From: Halichondria panicea
Taxonomy: Eukaryota > Porifera > Demospongiae > Suberitida > Halichondriidae
Length of the DNA: 64,000 nucleotides
Reading direction: 5' to 3'
NCBI RefSeq assembly: GCF_963675165.1
Contig: NC_087386.1
Coordinates: 3,102,169 to 3,166,168, forward strand
Below are positions 3,989-11,747 of the stretch, one piece after another. A program made the translations under genes and the position numbers. Under the pieces are notes generated by a model that made no database searches, was not told where the DNA came from, and worked only from the letters and a program-made list of their open reading frames with translations. The first letter of the stretch is position 1. Each line of letters opens with the position of its first letter.

Positions 3989-5760
3989 TCAGGGTTTCCG
4001 TTTACGAATCACTGCTCTCGGAAAGTCAACAAGTTCTAGTCAATTAAAGTAACCTCAGAATTGTAAACTTGGGTATATAATTATATAGGTATTAATTGAT
4101 ACATGCTTGTCTAAGAACAGCACTGAACATTTTCAGGGTCAAGTTCCGCACTGCATGCTCTCGGAAAGTCTGAAAAGTTGCTCAGCATGTTCCCAGTCAA
4201 TTAAATTAACCCGAGAAGAGTGTATCAATGTATTGGTTGATACCTGCTGGTCTAAAACCAGCACTAAATATATTTTCTGGGTTTCCGTTTACGAAGCACT
4301 GCTCTCGGAAAGTCTGAAAAGTTGCTCAGCAATTTCTTGTCGATTAAAGTAACCTCAATCTTAATTGGGCATATCAACGTATTGGCTGATATACCTGCTT
4401 GTCTAAGACCATGCAGCACTGACCATATTTTCAGGGTTTCCGTTTACGAATCACTGCTCTCGGAAAGTCTGAAAATTTTCTCAGCTATAGTTCTTGCTCA
4501 GCAAGTTCCAATCGATTAAAGTAACCTCAAAATTGTAAACTTGAGTATAATTATATCAAATACTGGCTGATATCTGCATGCTGAATATATTATTTTTCAG
4601 GGTTCCCATTAACGAACCACAGCTCTCGAAAAGTGAAAAAGTTGCTCAGCAAGTTCCAGTCGATTAAAGTAACCTCAGAATTGTGACTTGAGTATAATTA
4701 TATAAAATACTGGCTGATACCTGCATGCATGTCTATAGACCAGCACTGAATATGTTATTTTTCAGGGTTCCCGTTAACGAACCACAGCTCTCGGAAAGTC
4801 AGAAAAGTTGCTCAGCAATTAAGTTCCCAGTCGATTAAAGTAACCTCAGAAGAGTCATATTGGCTGATATCAGCATGCATGCATGTCTAGACCAGCACTG
4901 AATATATTGTTTTTCAGGGTTCCCGTTAACGAACCACAGCTCTCGGAAAGTCAGAAAAGTTGCTCAGCAAGTTCCAGTCGATTAAAGTAACCTCAGAATT
5001 GTAAACTTGAGTATATATATCAACATACTGGCTGATATCTGCATGCATGTCTAGACCAGCACTGAATATATTGTTTTTCAGGGTTCCCGTTAATGAACCA
5101 CAGCTCTCGGAAAGTCAGAAAAGTTGCTCAGTAAGTTCCAGTCGATTAAAGTAACCTCAGAATTGTAAACTTGAGTATATATATCAACATACTGGCTGAT
5201 ATCTGCATGCATGTCTAGACCAGCACTGAATATATTGTTTTTCAGGGTTCCCGTTAACGAACCACAGCTCTCGGAAAGTCAGAAAAGTTGCTTAGCAAGT
5301 TCCAGTCGATTAAAGTAACCTCAGAATTGTAAACTTGAGTATATTTATCAACATACTGGCTGATATCTGCATGCATGTCTATAGACCAGCACTGAATATG
5401 TTATTTTTCAGGGTTCCCGTTAACGAACCACAGCTCTCGGAAAGTCAGAAAAGTTGCTCAGCAAGTTCCAGTCGATTAAAGTAACCTCAAAATTGTAAAT
5501 TTGAGTATCACTGAATATATTCAGGGTTCCCGTTAACGAATCACTGCTCTCGGAAAGTCAGAAAAGTTTCTCAGCAAGTTCCAGTATACATAACTTATTG
5601 GCTGATACTTGTCTATAGACCAGGACTGAACATAATTATTTCAGTTCCCGTTCTCGAACCATTTTTCTGACTTTCTGAGAGCCATGATTCATGGCTCTCA
5701 GAAAGTCAGAAAAGTGGCTCGGCGTGTTCAGTAGAGCCAAATAACCTCAGGACAATAAAT
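3989..5760. repeat. Satellite of about 12 units, roughly 110-166 bp each
   Basis: Each unit opens with TCAGGGTTYCCGTTWACGAA, followed by CACWGCTCTCGGAAAGTC, AAAAGTTGCTCAGCAAGTTCC, CAGTCGATTAAAGTAACCTC and a variable AT-rich part ending GACCAGCACTGAATAT. Unit starts are near 3989, 4133, 4275, 4431, 4597, 4762, 4914, 5078, 5242, 5408, 5521 and 5641. Central units are most alike (164-166 bp spacing) and edge units are shorter and diverged, the usual pattern for unequal exchange. The last unit carries a perfect hairpin (5662-5713). Open frames inside it (for example 4107-4519) follow the repeat and are not taken as genes. Confidence 0.9.
5662..5713. repeat. Long perfect hairpin in the last satellite unit
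   Basis: The sequence reads CTGACTTTCTGAGAGCCAT, then a short centre, then ATGGCTCTCAGAAAGTCAG. The arms are built from the satellite's own TCTCGGAAAGTCAGAAAAG block, present once forward and once inverted. The inversion occurs only at the right edge of the array. Confidence 0.85.
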
Positions 5761-6115: not shown

Positions 6116-7079
6116 GCATAATAAAGCTTAGATAGAAATTGAGATGCAAAAAGATGCTTTCGATTGACTCTGCTTTTTCAAACAAGGAATACTTCGATAT
6201 GATAAAATCTTTATTTTCATTTGTCATAGAGCTTGGCAATATCATGAGTGTTTGGCGGAAATCAGCCACAGGTATTTGTTTCTCAGTTATTTCTTTGAGA
6301 GCCACCTTTCGTAGATCCATAAACCTTGTTTCAAATTTGTTTATGCAGTCAGCAGTTGTAGTGCCTAATAAAATGAAATGTACATGAGTTATCAAAACTA
6401 CGTTAAAAGATTACCAGAGGTGATAGTCTATCTATTGTACTGTCAGAAACAATAATTATCAAGTTCTTGATAATATTGAATCCATGCATAATTATACGGA
6501 GCTACTAACCTGGTGCAGGTGACAAGGACACAGCGTCTTCTTTATTCAGCTCACTGGCTTGTGTCTGGATGACTGGAGCACAAGAAATGATGAAAACACA
6601 GATTGTAGCTATTTATAAAGTAACTCACAAGTCCTACACACTTGGTCAGCCAAAGCTCCTTCACGAAGACTAAGCAAAATCTTCAACAACGGCCGATAAG
6701 TGAGGTCAACGATTTTGTATTCCCATTTCTTCAGAGCTTCATACATGGCCTGTTGATTGCCAATCCTAAAGGCACAATCCTTAAGATCCTCTATATCGGC
6801 ATTATTGAGATCAAACCCTAAGCTTCTATAACAAACTTTTTATAGCTGCCAAGTACACCAGCCAGGCTCCACAATTGTTCCTGCTCAATTCTTTGGTCTA
6901 GCTGGGTGTCTGTTACCCCAGTCTTCTGCTTCAGAGTATCAATATCAATATTGAGCTGGCTATATCTTGAATATGGAGTGCCGTTTGTATCAAAATCCTT
7001 TTTTTAAGGAACATTGTCCACGAGAAGGCGCTATTCCTCGAGCCACAGATATTTACTAAACATCCGTCTTATAAAAGCA

Positions 7080-8068
7080 GTGCAAACAGTAAAAAGCAGT
7101 GATATTTAGTAAAAAGCAGTGATATTTAATAAAAAGCAGTGATATTTAACTAAAAAGCTTAGTAAAAAACAGTGATGTTTAGTAAAAAACAGTGATATTT
7201 AGTAAAAAGCAGTGATGTTTAGTAAAAAGCAGTGATGTTTTAATAGTAAAAAGCAGTTAAAAAGCAGTGATGTTTAGTAAAAAGCAGTGATGTTTACTAA
7301 AAAGCAGTGATGTTTAGTAAAAAGCAGTGATATTTACTAAAAAGCAGTGATGTTTACTAAAAAGCAGTAGTAAAAAGCTTAGTAAAAAACAGTGATGTTT
7401 AGTAAAAAGCAGTGATATTTAGTAAAAAGCAGTGATGTTTAGGCCACTCCAAGTGATACTCTGGTTTCTGGTCCTGAAGTTTTTCTAATTGCATGCGGGC
7501 GGGCGGCTTTTCTCATTATGTCATTATCAATTTCACCTTATGAATCTCATTATTTTGCAAATGAATATCATTATCACACTATTTTGTACCGCATGGACCA
7601 TTCTGCGCATGCGTAGTAGAAATAATGAGATAGAAATCCAATAATGAGATAGAAATCCAAGAATAAAATCTGATGCGGGCGGTGGACCAGAAACCAGAGT
7701 ATCACTTGGAGTGGCCTTACTAAAAAGCAGTGATATTTAGTAAAAAGCAGTGATATTTAGTAAAAAGCAGTGATGTTTACTAAAAAGCAGTGATATTTAC
7801 TAAAAAACTTAGTAAAAAACAGTGATATTTAGTAAAAAACAGTGATGTTTAGTAAAAAGCAGTGATATTTAGTAAAAAGCAGTAATGTTTAGTAAAAAGC
7901 AGTTAAAAAGCAGTGATGTTTATTAAAAAGCAGTGATGTTTACTAAAAAGCAGTGATATTTAGTAAAAAACAGTAATGTTCAGTTAAAAAGCAGTGATGT
8001 TTATTAAAAAGCAGTGATGTTTACTAAAAAGCAGTGATATTATTTTAGTAAAAAGCAGTGATGTTTAG
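7080..8068. repeat. 20 bp satellite inside the inverted-repeat element
   Basis: Head-to-tail units of AGTAAAAAGCAGTGATRTTT, with G/C variation at the TTTA(G/C)TAAA junction and occasional AAAAAAC for AAAAAGC. There are around 45 units on both sides of the nested MITE. Two inverted fragments (CACTGCTTTTTAGTAAACAT at 8111-8130 and the next) lie near the right end. There are no spacers of unique sequence between units. Confidence 0.92.
7442..7716. mobile_element. 275 bp Harbinger-type MITE nested in the 20 bp satellite
   Basis: Perfect terminal inverted repeats of about 33 bp begin GGCCACTCCAAGTGATACTC and end at the mirror-image GAGTGGCC. They are flanked by TTA on both sides (7439-7441 and 7717-7719). 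Removing the element and one TTA restores a normal 20 bp satellite unit. A TTA (TWA) target duplication with G/C-rich TIRs is characteristic of PIF/Harbinger elements. The interior has a short direct repeat (ATAATGAGATAGAAATCCA twice, 7620-7660) and no ORF. Confidence 0.85.
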
Positions 8069-8206
8069 TCCTTCGACCTACTTGTATATTTGACGACCAT
8101 AACTAATATCACTGCTTTTTAGTAAACATCACTCACATGACTGCTTTTTACTAAAAAGGATTTTGATACAAACGGCACTCCATACTTGTAGCCATCTTGT
8201 AGACTC

Positions 8207-8571: not shown

Positions 8572-10755
8572 TCACTCGACTCGTCTTGTCGATGAGAGAC
8601 TCATTGGTGATATTTCGTATCCGAATGATTGTTCATCGATTAATAGTTCATCGATTAATAGTTCATCTAGATGTGATACATAATCAGACTCCGCAGAGCT
8701 TGGTGCTAATGTGGTATGACATGAAGTGTATGAAGACTGCAAGTAGATTGGTTCCTTGAGACGGTCAATCACAGTCATGGTAGCAGTGGGTGGAAGCTGG
8801 TCGTGAATTGAAGTGAAGATATTTTGCACGGACATAGAAGAGGATGCCAGTTCGTCCCATATGCCAGTCACTCTTCTCATGATCTCATCACTGAGATAAC
8901 TAATAAAACCAATAATGTAGTTTTCCCAGATTGCTTCAATGAACTGAAAAACATGGTGTTTAGAAGAAAAGGAAACGAACAAAAATATTTTTGGGTTGTT
9001 GGCAAGGTGTGTGGCAATAGGAGGGAATAGTGGTGCCATAATATCTTCCTTGATGTTGATGTCACCACAAGCAGTGTGCAGATCATTACCCTCTCCTCTT
9101 CCAGATACCGACACTATTATGGGGTGGTGTTTCAGCTTAACAAGATCTACAGCTTGCATGTATGCCTTTAGTGTTAGTTTATCTCGAGGCTCGTATACAG
9201 CAAATCTCAATGTATCCATGAGCATGTATGTAAAGATCAACGAATGATTTGTTGCAACAATAGCAAGTCCACGATGATTAGGTTCGAGGTCAATTGTTCG
9301 CTTCATTTCATCCGCTATCCTTTGATGTGGTTTAAGAGAGGTCACAGCTTCAGCTCCAATCATAGCACCACCAGATCCCTCTATACCTGATTGACTAACC
9401 TGTAGAGAAAAATTCATTGGATAAGGAGCAGAATTAAACACTTACCTTTACCATCGGGTAGAGACATTTTCCTTCGAGTGATAGTTTGAGAATATTGTTG
9501 CTTAAAAAGAAAGAAGCTGTTTTCTTCTGCACTTGATCACTGATCATTGCTACTACAGCAGCAGGCACTAGCCATGTAACCAGTAGTGAGCTCTCCTGGA
9601 GGTCAAACAAAGAAAGGGCTAGCGGGGAGAGCAAGCACCTTTTGGCAAGGCCTTTCCTGTACGTGTCTACGTCTTCAAGAGTTGCAGTCTGAACATCACA
9701 AGCAAATTTCGCTTTGATACGAGAGTAACCAACAGGAGTATCTGAATTTCTAGGAAGATGGCCAAGTGCTTCGCTAACGGGGGTGTTCATTCTGAAGTGT
9801 CTCATGTCTTCTGCATAGCTGCTCATGTCTCGTTTCAGACTATCACTACCAAATTGCTCTATGATATGCTCAAGAAGGCTGAAATCAATAAAACTCAGGT
9901 AGAAATTGAGATGCACAAAGATGCTTTCGATTGACTCTGCTTTTTCAAACAAGGGATATTTTGATATGATGAAATCTTCGTTTTCACTTGTGATAGGGCA
10001 TGGTAAATTCATGAGTGTTTGGCGAAAATCAGTCACAGGTATTCGTTTCTCAGTTATCTCTTTGAGAGCTATCTTTCGTAGATCCCTAAACCTCGTATCA
10101 AACTCTTTAATGCGGTCAGCAGTTGTAGTGCCTATGATTATGTTATGATTACCCTATCAAAGCTACGTTAAAGCTGTACCTGTCGCCAAGGAATTTGGTA
10201 TGTCATGAATTGGTGGCAGTGATATTCTACCTATGGTACAATAACAATTAATTGATAACGAATCCATAATTGTACTGAGCTACTAACCTGGTGCAGGTGA
10301 CAAGGACACAGCGTCTTCTTTATTCAGCTCACTGGCTTGTGTCTGGATGACTGGAGCACAAGAAATGATGAAAACACAGATTGTAGTTATTTATAAAGTA
10401 ACTCACAAGTCCTACACACTTGGTCAGCCAAAGCTCCTTCACGAAGACTAATCAAAATCTCCAACAACGACCGATAAGTGAAGTCACGGATGACATTTCC
10501 CCATTTCCTTAAAGCTTCACACATGGCCTGTTGATTTCCATTACGCTTAGAGGCAATGGTCTCCAGATCTGCTATATCGGCATTATTGAGATCAAACCCT
10601 GGCTTTCTAACAAACTTATTGTAGCTGCCAAGTAAACCAGCCAGGCTCCACAATTGTTCCTGCTCAATTCTTTGGTCTAGCTGGGTGTCTGTTACCCCAG
10701 TCTTCTGCTTCAGAGTATCAATATCAATACTGAGCTGGCTATATCTTGTAGCCAT
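8572..10755 (-). CDS. Death-domain protein with a catalytically dead caspase-like C-terminus
   Basis: Four exons (10407-10755, 10288-10350, 9446-10131, 8572-9399) join in one frame to give about 641 residues. The start ATG at 10755 opens MATRYSQLSIDI. Residues about 1-100 fit a Death domain: LWSLAGLLGSYN, then LRKWGNV and LLEILISLREGALADQV. Residues 138-366 form a middle region I cannot name (FRQTLMNLP, FSLLEHIIEQFGSDSLK, SLLVTWLVPAAVV). Residues about 405-560 read like a caspase p20/p10: RGLAIVATN, KLTLKAYMQAV, PKIFLFV, then ENYIIGFIS and GIWDEL. The catalytic positions look lost: the SHG motif reads VSGRG (near residue 466) and the QACRG Cys aligns with Phe about 510. I infer a non-proteolytic adaptor or regulator of death or immune signalling. 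There is a short LLIDE duplication near the C-terminus. A retrotransposon sits directly against the start codon, and a broken tandem copy lies downstream. Gene structure is firm; the caspase homology is moderate. Confidence 0.7.
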
Positions 10756-10982
10756 CTTGTAGCCTCGAGGCCAGACTCCTCCCCGGGTCAGATCACGTGC
10801 TATTCTGTCTCCGCTTCTCTACTCAGTTTTTGTTGATGATCTGCTTGCCCAGCTACAGCGGCCTAGGTGCAATGGTTGGCTCAGTCCACTGTCCCTCCCC
10901 AATGTATGCAGACGATCTTGCTCTCATTGCGGACTCACCTGAAGGGTTACAGAAGCTTCTTGATATCGTCTCTCATTATACC

Positions 10983-11747
10983 AGAGATACAAAAGAAAGG
11001 GGATTGGAAACGAAATTTTTACGAAATTTTTGCGTGAAGCATTCCGTGTTATAGGGCGTGGCTAAAACTACAAAGGATTATATTTATAGTCAGCATGCTC
11101 ATTACCAGTCTTGACTGCTCTACAATGTGCTGTACATAGAAACAGTGAAATTGATCATTTTTAATGTTGATTTTTCTAAAAAGTAAAGAGAATTTAGCTC
11201 TAAAAAGTCGACTAAGCCATGCAGCCACTATTACTAGACAAATAAATGCTATGCAAGAAGAAATAGCCTTTACTATGAAGTCGTAGGAGGGACAGGCCCG
11301 TGGCGTGTCTAAAAGTATACTAAAGCAGTTTGAAGGACTATACTGCAAACGTTTATGAACAGTACAGCTTATTTATAGCATGAAGCCATTCTATGTAGCA
11401 CTTAGATACATAATAACCAAGTCAAGCAATGTCCTTTGCTGTTTTGACTTCACAGGAGGGACAGAGAAAAGTTGACATAGAGTAATTCAAGCTAAACTCA
11501 AAAAAATTGGAAACAGAGTAAAGACAACGGACTTAGAGCTTGTCAGTGGTATAAGCTTACTTCTCTCAAGTATCTCCCAGGCCCTGAGTGATCTCTAGTG
11601 GATAGGAGAGCTAGAAACCAGGGATACAAAACTTTTCCATGTAATTATTTGCGAGCGCAATAATTACACGGAGTGCTTCACCGGATGTCAGTCCTTTTAC
11701 ATAGGGCGTGGGCGGTCGTTTCCAATCCCCTTTCTTTTGTATCTCTG
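10983..11747. mobile_element. 765 bp non-autonomous DNA transposon, 8 bp target duplication
   Basis: Terminal inverted repeats AGAGATACAAAAGAAAGGGG (left 10983) and its mirror CCCCTTTCTTTTGTATCTCT (right, ending about 11746), continuing as ATTGGAAACGA. ATTATACC flanks both sides (10975-10982 and 11748-11755). The TIR resembles that of the neighbouring 2.5 kb element, so this may be a deleted relative. Subterminal GTGAAGCAYTCCGTGT blocks are also inverted. It contains no convincing protein. Confidence 0.85.

Follow-up and report, generated by a model that had tools for sequence, protein, structure and literature searches.

Pseudo-caspases are usually treated as single conserved regulators, the familiar example being cFLIP-L (CFLAR), a single gene whose product carries tandem DEDs. 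Several described systems resemble the locus considered here. The caspase-fold domain of cFLIP-L lacks catalytic activity and is preceded by a Death-superfamily front end, and its gene lies beside that of caspase-8 (PMC11121540). In Amphimedon, 357 TRADD-N proteins of the NCOA6 clade have been reported, in which a Death-like domain and TRADD-N are followed by a variable C-terminus (Kaur et al. 2021, eLife, PMC8195603), while the NLRs of sponges such as Dysidea combine Death, NACHT and LRR (PMC12909245). Here we analyze a gene of Halichondria panicea located at positions 8572-10755 on the minus strand of a 64,000-nucleotide stretch of DNA, referred to as the window (contig NC_087386.1, positions 3,102,169 to 3,166,168). 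The gene appears to share the published Amphimedon layout, and like cFLIP-L it places a Death-like module ahead of a caspase-like domain that lacks the catalytic residues. Diversifying selection in its family is by far strongest in the exon encoding this domain, and is concentrated in the loops around the dead active site, the place at which a working caspase would hold its substrate and where a recognition surface would be predicted to vary.

Gene structure

As the preliminary description of the sequence had proposed, the gene comprises four exons with GT-AG introns that together give an intact frame of 641 amino acids and a stop codon, and the four caspase landmarks quoted there (RGLAIVATN, KLTLKAYMQAV, PKIFLFV and GIWDEL) are all present in the translation.

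10407..10755, minus strand: exon 1, residues 1-116, probable Death domain; ATG at 10755, GT donor
10288..10350, minus strand: exon 2, short linker of 63 bases with AG/GT borders
9446..10131, minus strand: exon 3, residues 139-366, the middle domain of the preliminary description, with relatives in NLR-like and kinase genes of the same genome
8572..9399, minus strand: exon 4, residues 367-641 and stop; dead caspase-like domain with a tail

The frame is not a product of chance, since the exon borders can be transferred to 18 other exon 4-bearing copies with the splice dinucleotides kept, apart from a small number of borders that have been deleted or have shifted. Exon 2 is 63 bases long in all 20 aligned copies, counting a truncated twin described below.

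Caspase homology of exon 4 and loss of the catalytic residues

Direct searches with exon 4 are weak. The Pfam caspase model matched none of 12 family members, exons 3 and 4 of the window gene matched no Pfam family at E ≤ 1, a single-sequence search of the PDB with the window gene gave no match, and the exon 4 family profile returned a single, weak PDB row, caspase-3, at E 0.61. When a 15-copy profile was compared with 11 caspases encoded by this genome, 103 columns aligned at E 2.4e-4 (probability 43.5%), and a broader set of 12 gave E 0.0012 (probability 19.6%). When trimmed to the core, the two sets aligned over 53 columns in hhalign at E 3.6e-5 (probability 71%) and E 1.2e-4 (probability 55%), respectively, and in each case none of 100 column-shuffled controls scored as high. 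A further link is provided by a bridging dead-caspase family found beside diverged family members on C10, the contig of the window. It matches active caspases with E 2.5e-5, the window gene with E 2.7e-8 and members of the array with values as low as E 3e-16, and its profile aligns with caspases at a probability of 93% and E 4e-7. Its nine PDB rows at E ≤ 10, all with E ≥ 0.17, consist of cFLIP (the best, 3h11, E 0.17), seven caspases and one kinase. Because of the core profile match and the links through the bridging family, and in spite of the weak direct searches, we accept that on this chain of sequence comparisons the core of exon 4 is homologous to caspases.

8740..9294, minus strand: caspase-like core, residues 402-586; strands GLAIVA, PIIVSV and PKIFLF aligned to caspases, and NYIIGFI aligned by way of the bridging family

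The AlphaFold2 single-sequence model of exon 4 has a predicted local distance difference test score (pLDDT) of 34 and a predicted template modelling score (pTM) of 0.24, and is unusable for assigning the fold. The bridging sequences form a second, distinct dead-caspase family (L017:3282-3806, L018:2139-2861 and L019:3952-4719) that reads SGQVAG at the His position and MAYTG or MAYTD at the Cys position, and may be either separate genes or a second domain.

In the profile alignment with caspases R467 falls under the catalytic His and F510 under the catalytic Cys, neither of them a catalytic residue. Gaps in the Cys loop make the Cys column of this alignment less certain than the His column. The preliminary reading of G and F at these positions holds for F510, whereas the His column is R467, one residue away from G466, which is invariant in the family. 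The exon 4 comparison covers 15 of 19 copies, the four left out being those whose exon 4 frame is short. The His column reads H in three of the 15 and the Cys column reads C in one, and no copy has both; one of the copies left out also reads H in the His column. Judged by these residues, exon 4 encodes a caspase homologue that has lost the catalytic pair and is non-proteolytic. The earlier proposal of a Death-like exon joined to a catalytically dead homologue kept intact by selection is supported. The tail of exon 4 in the window gene is unlike the tails of the aligned paralogues, and contains a 15-bp tandem repeat (window 8631-8667) encoding the stretch ELLIDELLIDE.

A tandem family

A six-frame search of the 131-Mb genome (window on G000:C10) with exon 4 yielded 33 matches, several of which are pieces of one copy. 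Fifteen copies form a tandem array on C8 (6.714-6.757 Mb) with a spacing of 2.3-3.3 kb; outside it C11 has two copies and C8 one more, and the remaining matches are the window gene, fragments and three diverged loci on C10 (2.89-2.92 Mb). Copies were modeled by lifting the exon borders of the window gene onto the alignment, and broken ones were described rather than mended. Complete open genes account for eight of the 19 exon 4-bearing copies (WIN, which is the window gene, C8a07, a11-a15 and C8b), and the other 11 contain stops, frameshifts, deletions or truncations, a few of which may reflect faulty lifted borders. Near the diverged C10 loci, L034:2505-5420 (C10:2920505-2923420) contains DED (2.1e-32) and caspase (2e-31; STHG, QSCRR) open reading frames (ORFs), presumably of one gene. 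About 350 bp separates their end from the Death-like exon of a diverged member, which lies on the same strand.

Diversifying selection around the dead active site

The framework of exon 4 is nearly invariant, for example at KHHPI and EDI-PLFPPIATHLA-NPKIFLF, and many of its columns do not vary at all. The segments that follow strands 1, 3, 4 and 5 vary strongly and carry most of the insertions and deletions.

9208..9252, minus strand: loop after the first strand (416-430), hypervariable
9061..9105, minus strand: loop after the third strand (465-479), hypervariable; His-equivalent column R467 at 9097-9099
8932..8976, minus strand: loop after the fourth strand (508-522), hypervariable with insertions and deletions; Cys-equivalent column F510 at 8968-8970
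8857..8901, minus strand: loop after the fifth strand (533-547), hypervariable with insertions and deletions

Site models M1a and M2a, written for this analysis, were compared by twice the difference in log-likelihood (2ΔlnL) for a class of codons with a ratio of nonsynonymous to synonymous change (ω, dN/dS) above 1. For codons 402-586 this value is 97.8 in the eight intact copies and 154.5 in 15 copies, seven of which come from genes broken elsewhere, and the maximum among 31 data sets simulated under M1a is 10.2, with one starting point per fit. Exon 1 gives 4.6 for the eight intact copies and 11.4 for 14 copies (p 0.003), and exon 3 gives 7.6 (p 0.023) and 5.7 for eight intact and 12 copies, respectively, with ω in exon 3 of about 0.5. 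Nominal significance is reached in two of the four tests. The flagged codons of exon 4 cluster in the four loops, which hold 18 of 26 while making up 44 of the 166 tested codons (Fisher 6.6e-7), and in the intact copies alone the loops hold 14 of 19 with 48 of 170 codons (Fisher 1.6e-5). The segments leading into strands 3 and 4 (445-460 and 480-507) contain none of the 26. Columns with gaps follow the same distribution (64 of 108 in loops and three of 125 elsewhere), with 36 of the 64 due to a single insertion in three copies. Counting estimates of dN/dS, 0.71 in the framework and 1.36 (0.99-1.88) in the pooled loops, agree in direction only. A control set of six active tandem caspases from the same genome has neither variation nor flagged codons in AHG and QACQG, and the dead family displays the reverse of this pattern.

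Several observations weigh against the conclusion that the loops are diversified by selection. The counting estimates are weak, and the dN/dS interval of each single loop includes 1; the loops also have roughly double the synonymous divergence (dS 0.30 vs 0.15). The bounds of the loops were fixed after the variability had been seen, though by the ends of strands. With 11 of 19 copies broken, seven of the 15 exon 4 sequences derive from broken copies. Signal is also present in exon 1 (14 copies) and in exon 3 (eight intact copies), and the control set of active caspases likewise has a class with ω > 1 (2ΔlnL 28.5). Gene conversion occurs in tandem arrays and can mimic positive selection; when codons 402-586 were divided into three segments, each with its own tree, all were significant at p 1.5e-3 or less, and recombination as the sole source of the signal is rejected on this basis, with gene conversion still a possible contributor. 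Finally, because the exon 4 model has a pLDDT of only 34, the placement of the variable loops on one face of the fold is taken from the sequence alignment.

The Death-like and middle exons

Exon 1 matches Pfam Death at 19.7-19.9 bits (E 0.0008-0.0009), below the curated cut-off of 22.6 bits, and a match at E ≤ 0.05 occurs in four of 12 aligned copies, the window copy among them. The Death domain named in the preliminary description is in this sense Death-like with a sub-threshold score, and we regard exon 1 as a probable Death domain.

Exon 3 divides into two parts.

9755..10129, minus strand: N-terminal part (139-263), predicted to form a helical bundle and possibly a further domain of the Death superfamily (DED/PYD-like)
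9446..9754, minus strand: C-terminal part (264-366), probable TRADD-N-type domain with a conserved turn Ser, assigned from the Ser and the architecture

Fold matches of the DED type are weak for exon 3. In the C-terminal part, the turn Ser is invariant in the eight of eight divergent copies that have the segment, and sits where the TRADD-N turn between strands 2 and 3 fits, with strands placed by eye in a region where the model is unreliable (block means 32-37). The TRADD-N profile PF13820 matched neither exon 3 nor any control, and searches of Pfam, NCBIfam and the PDB gave no convincing match of exon 3 to TRADD-N. Its position between the Death-like domain and the variable C-terminus is that of TRADD-N in the proteins described by Kaur et al. 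(PMC8195603), and this architecture makes a TRADD-N-type identity probable.

The middle domain had been suggested to be new. A genome search with exon 3 gave 94 matches, some being two pieces of one copy, and among the loci opened related sequence precedes a NACHT-LRR region (L044), an LRR region (L045) and a protein kinase (L035); near C16:5710171 a NACHT domain lies about 2 kb downstream of it. With relatives across the genome and a fit to an architecture already published for Amphimedon (PMC8195603), a new middle domain is rejected.

Neighboring sequence and genome context

The window also contains a truncated tandem twin of the gene, with no exon 4 match. Its DNA is 86-97% identical to that of the window gene in the three longest repeat blocks and 77% in a fourth.

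6120..6970, minus strand: truncated twin, exons 1 and 2 and the start of exon 3

Between twin and gene lie two arrays of 20-bp units with about 18 copies each (window 7088-7442 and 7717-8069), and a 164-bp tandem repeat occupies window 5000-5508. An open frame on the plus strand (window 10752-11054) starts at the 5′ end of the gene and has no Pfam match at E ≤ 0.01; it contains YADDLALIA, which we take to resemble a retrotransposon reverse transcriptase. Elsewhere, L037 (C8, ~5426.3-5427.6 kb) has a Death-like exon 93% and a middle exon 79% identical to those of the window gene, with no exon 4 match within the 10 kb examined. Two active caspase genes are present in copies with identical translations, some 10 kb apart (L028/L029 and L031/L032, C11:1.829-1.845 Mb), reflecting recent duplication or an assembly duplicate. 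All 102 NACHT candidates scored, out of 265 genome-wide, were above the cut-off, a large expansion of NLR type.

Discussion

The gene product may be a cytoplasmic innate-immune adaptor or receptor, in which a Death-like signaling module and a TRADD-N-type bridge are fused to a caspase-fold domain that would not cut. The same animal appears to join this cassette to NACHT-LRR and kinase regions as well. In the family of the window gene the former active-site loops would have become a diversified binding surface, such that each paralogue could offer its own cleft to its own ligand. Candidate ligands are proteins of pathogens, inhibitors of caspases and markers of self or non-self, and their binding may be relayed via the TRADD-N-type domain to Death-domain assembly. 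In our judgment the proposal that the window gene encodes an adaptor using its dead caspase cleft in this way has an even chance of being right. The broader reading, in which a dead protease of an early-branching animal has become a variable recognition domain, with an adaptor array whose former active-site loops diversify by positive selection while the framework stays fixed, as variable loops do in dedicated immune receptors, is offered tentatively as slightly short of even.

Among the alternatives, the one that survives best, though we consider it unlikely, is a regulator resembling cFLIP, in which the dead domain, recruited by way of the Death-like module, would partner an active caspase and adjust how strongly the latter is activated. 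A dead caspase domain behind a Death-like front agrees with the analogy to cFLIP drawn in the preliminary description, the best (weak) PDB match of the bridging family is cFLIP, and the proximity of diverged family members to the DED and caspase ORFs recalls vertebrate cFLIP beside caspase-8 (PMC11121540). However, the window gene lies about 187 kb from the L034 caspase and has no Pfam DED, and a heterodimer partner would be expected to keep its dimer interface constant, not to vary at the cleft from one array member to the next. The earlier description had seen one gene and not the array, and the analogy is only partly apt because a conserved scaffold does not predict that divergence will be fastest around the lost active site.

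An integrated decoy, in which the caspase mimic binds pathogen inhibitors that plug caspase active sites and so triggers the Death module, would account both for selection centered on active-site loops and for fusion to a signaling cassette. We find it rather improbable: the loops are unlike the cleft of active caspases, no member has both His and Cys, and the window gene has a shortened first loop without the R-x-G found in active caspases. Recognition between individuals (self/non-self) instead of pathogen sensing would suit a tandem, fast-diversifying family, and allo-incompatibility in sponges is mentioned by Kaur et al. (PMC8195603), but the domains are of cytoplasmic type, and we assign this possibility a small probability. 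That the family is decaying, its dead and dispensable enzyme varying by neutral drift, as the 11 of 19 modeled copies that are broken under lifted borders might suggest, is very improbable and is rejected on the strength of the exon 4 signal against null simulations (2ΔlnL 97.8 in intact copies alone), the many invariant framework columns and the constraint on exon 3.

The active caspases of the same genome (Peptidase_C14) are homologous to the core of exon 4 and have the QxC(R/Q) motif in all 12 loci examined of 33 matches, whereas the family of the window gene lacks it. In sponge NLRs of the kind described in Dysidea (PMC12909245) the Death domain leads to NACHT and LRR, and at L044 the middle domain precedes both; the window gene has neither, and exons 3 and 4 gave no Pfam NACHT match. 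cFLIP-L, unlike the family examined here, is not a diversifying array. We found no description of a dead, diversifying caspase cleft in the literature examined, and the main text of Kaur et al. (PMC8195603) contains neither 'positive selection' nor 'hypervariab'. If the proposed reading is true, a tandem family in which the rim of a dead active site is under diversifying selection would represent a new route to a variable innate-immune recognition surface, and a concrete, testable case for the role of the variable C-termini of TRADD-N proteins. In the Amphimedon proteins raised column entropy in TRADD-N itself was read as diversification and caspase is listed as a potential enzymatic effector (PMC8195603); in the window gene, by contrast, exon 3 shows little diversification, and it is the loops of a former caspase active site, now dead, that diversify.
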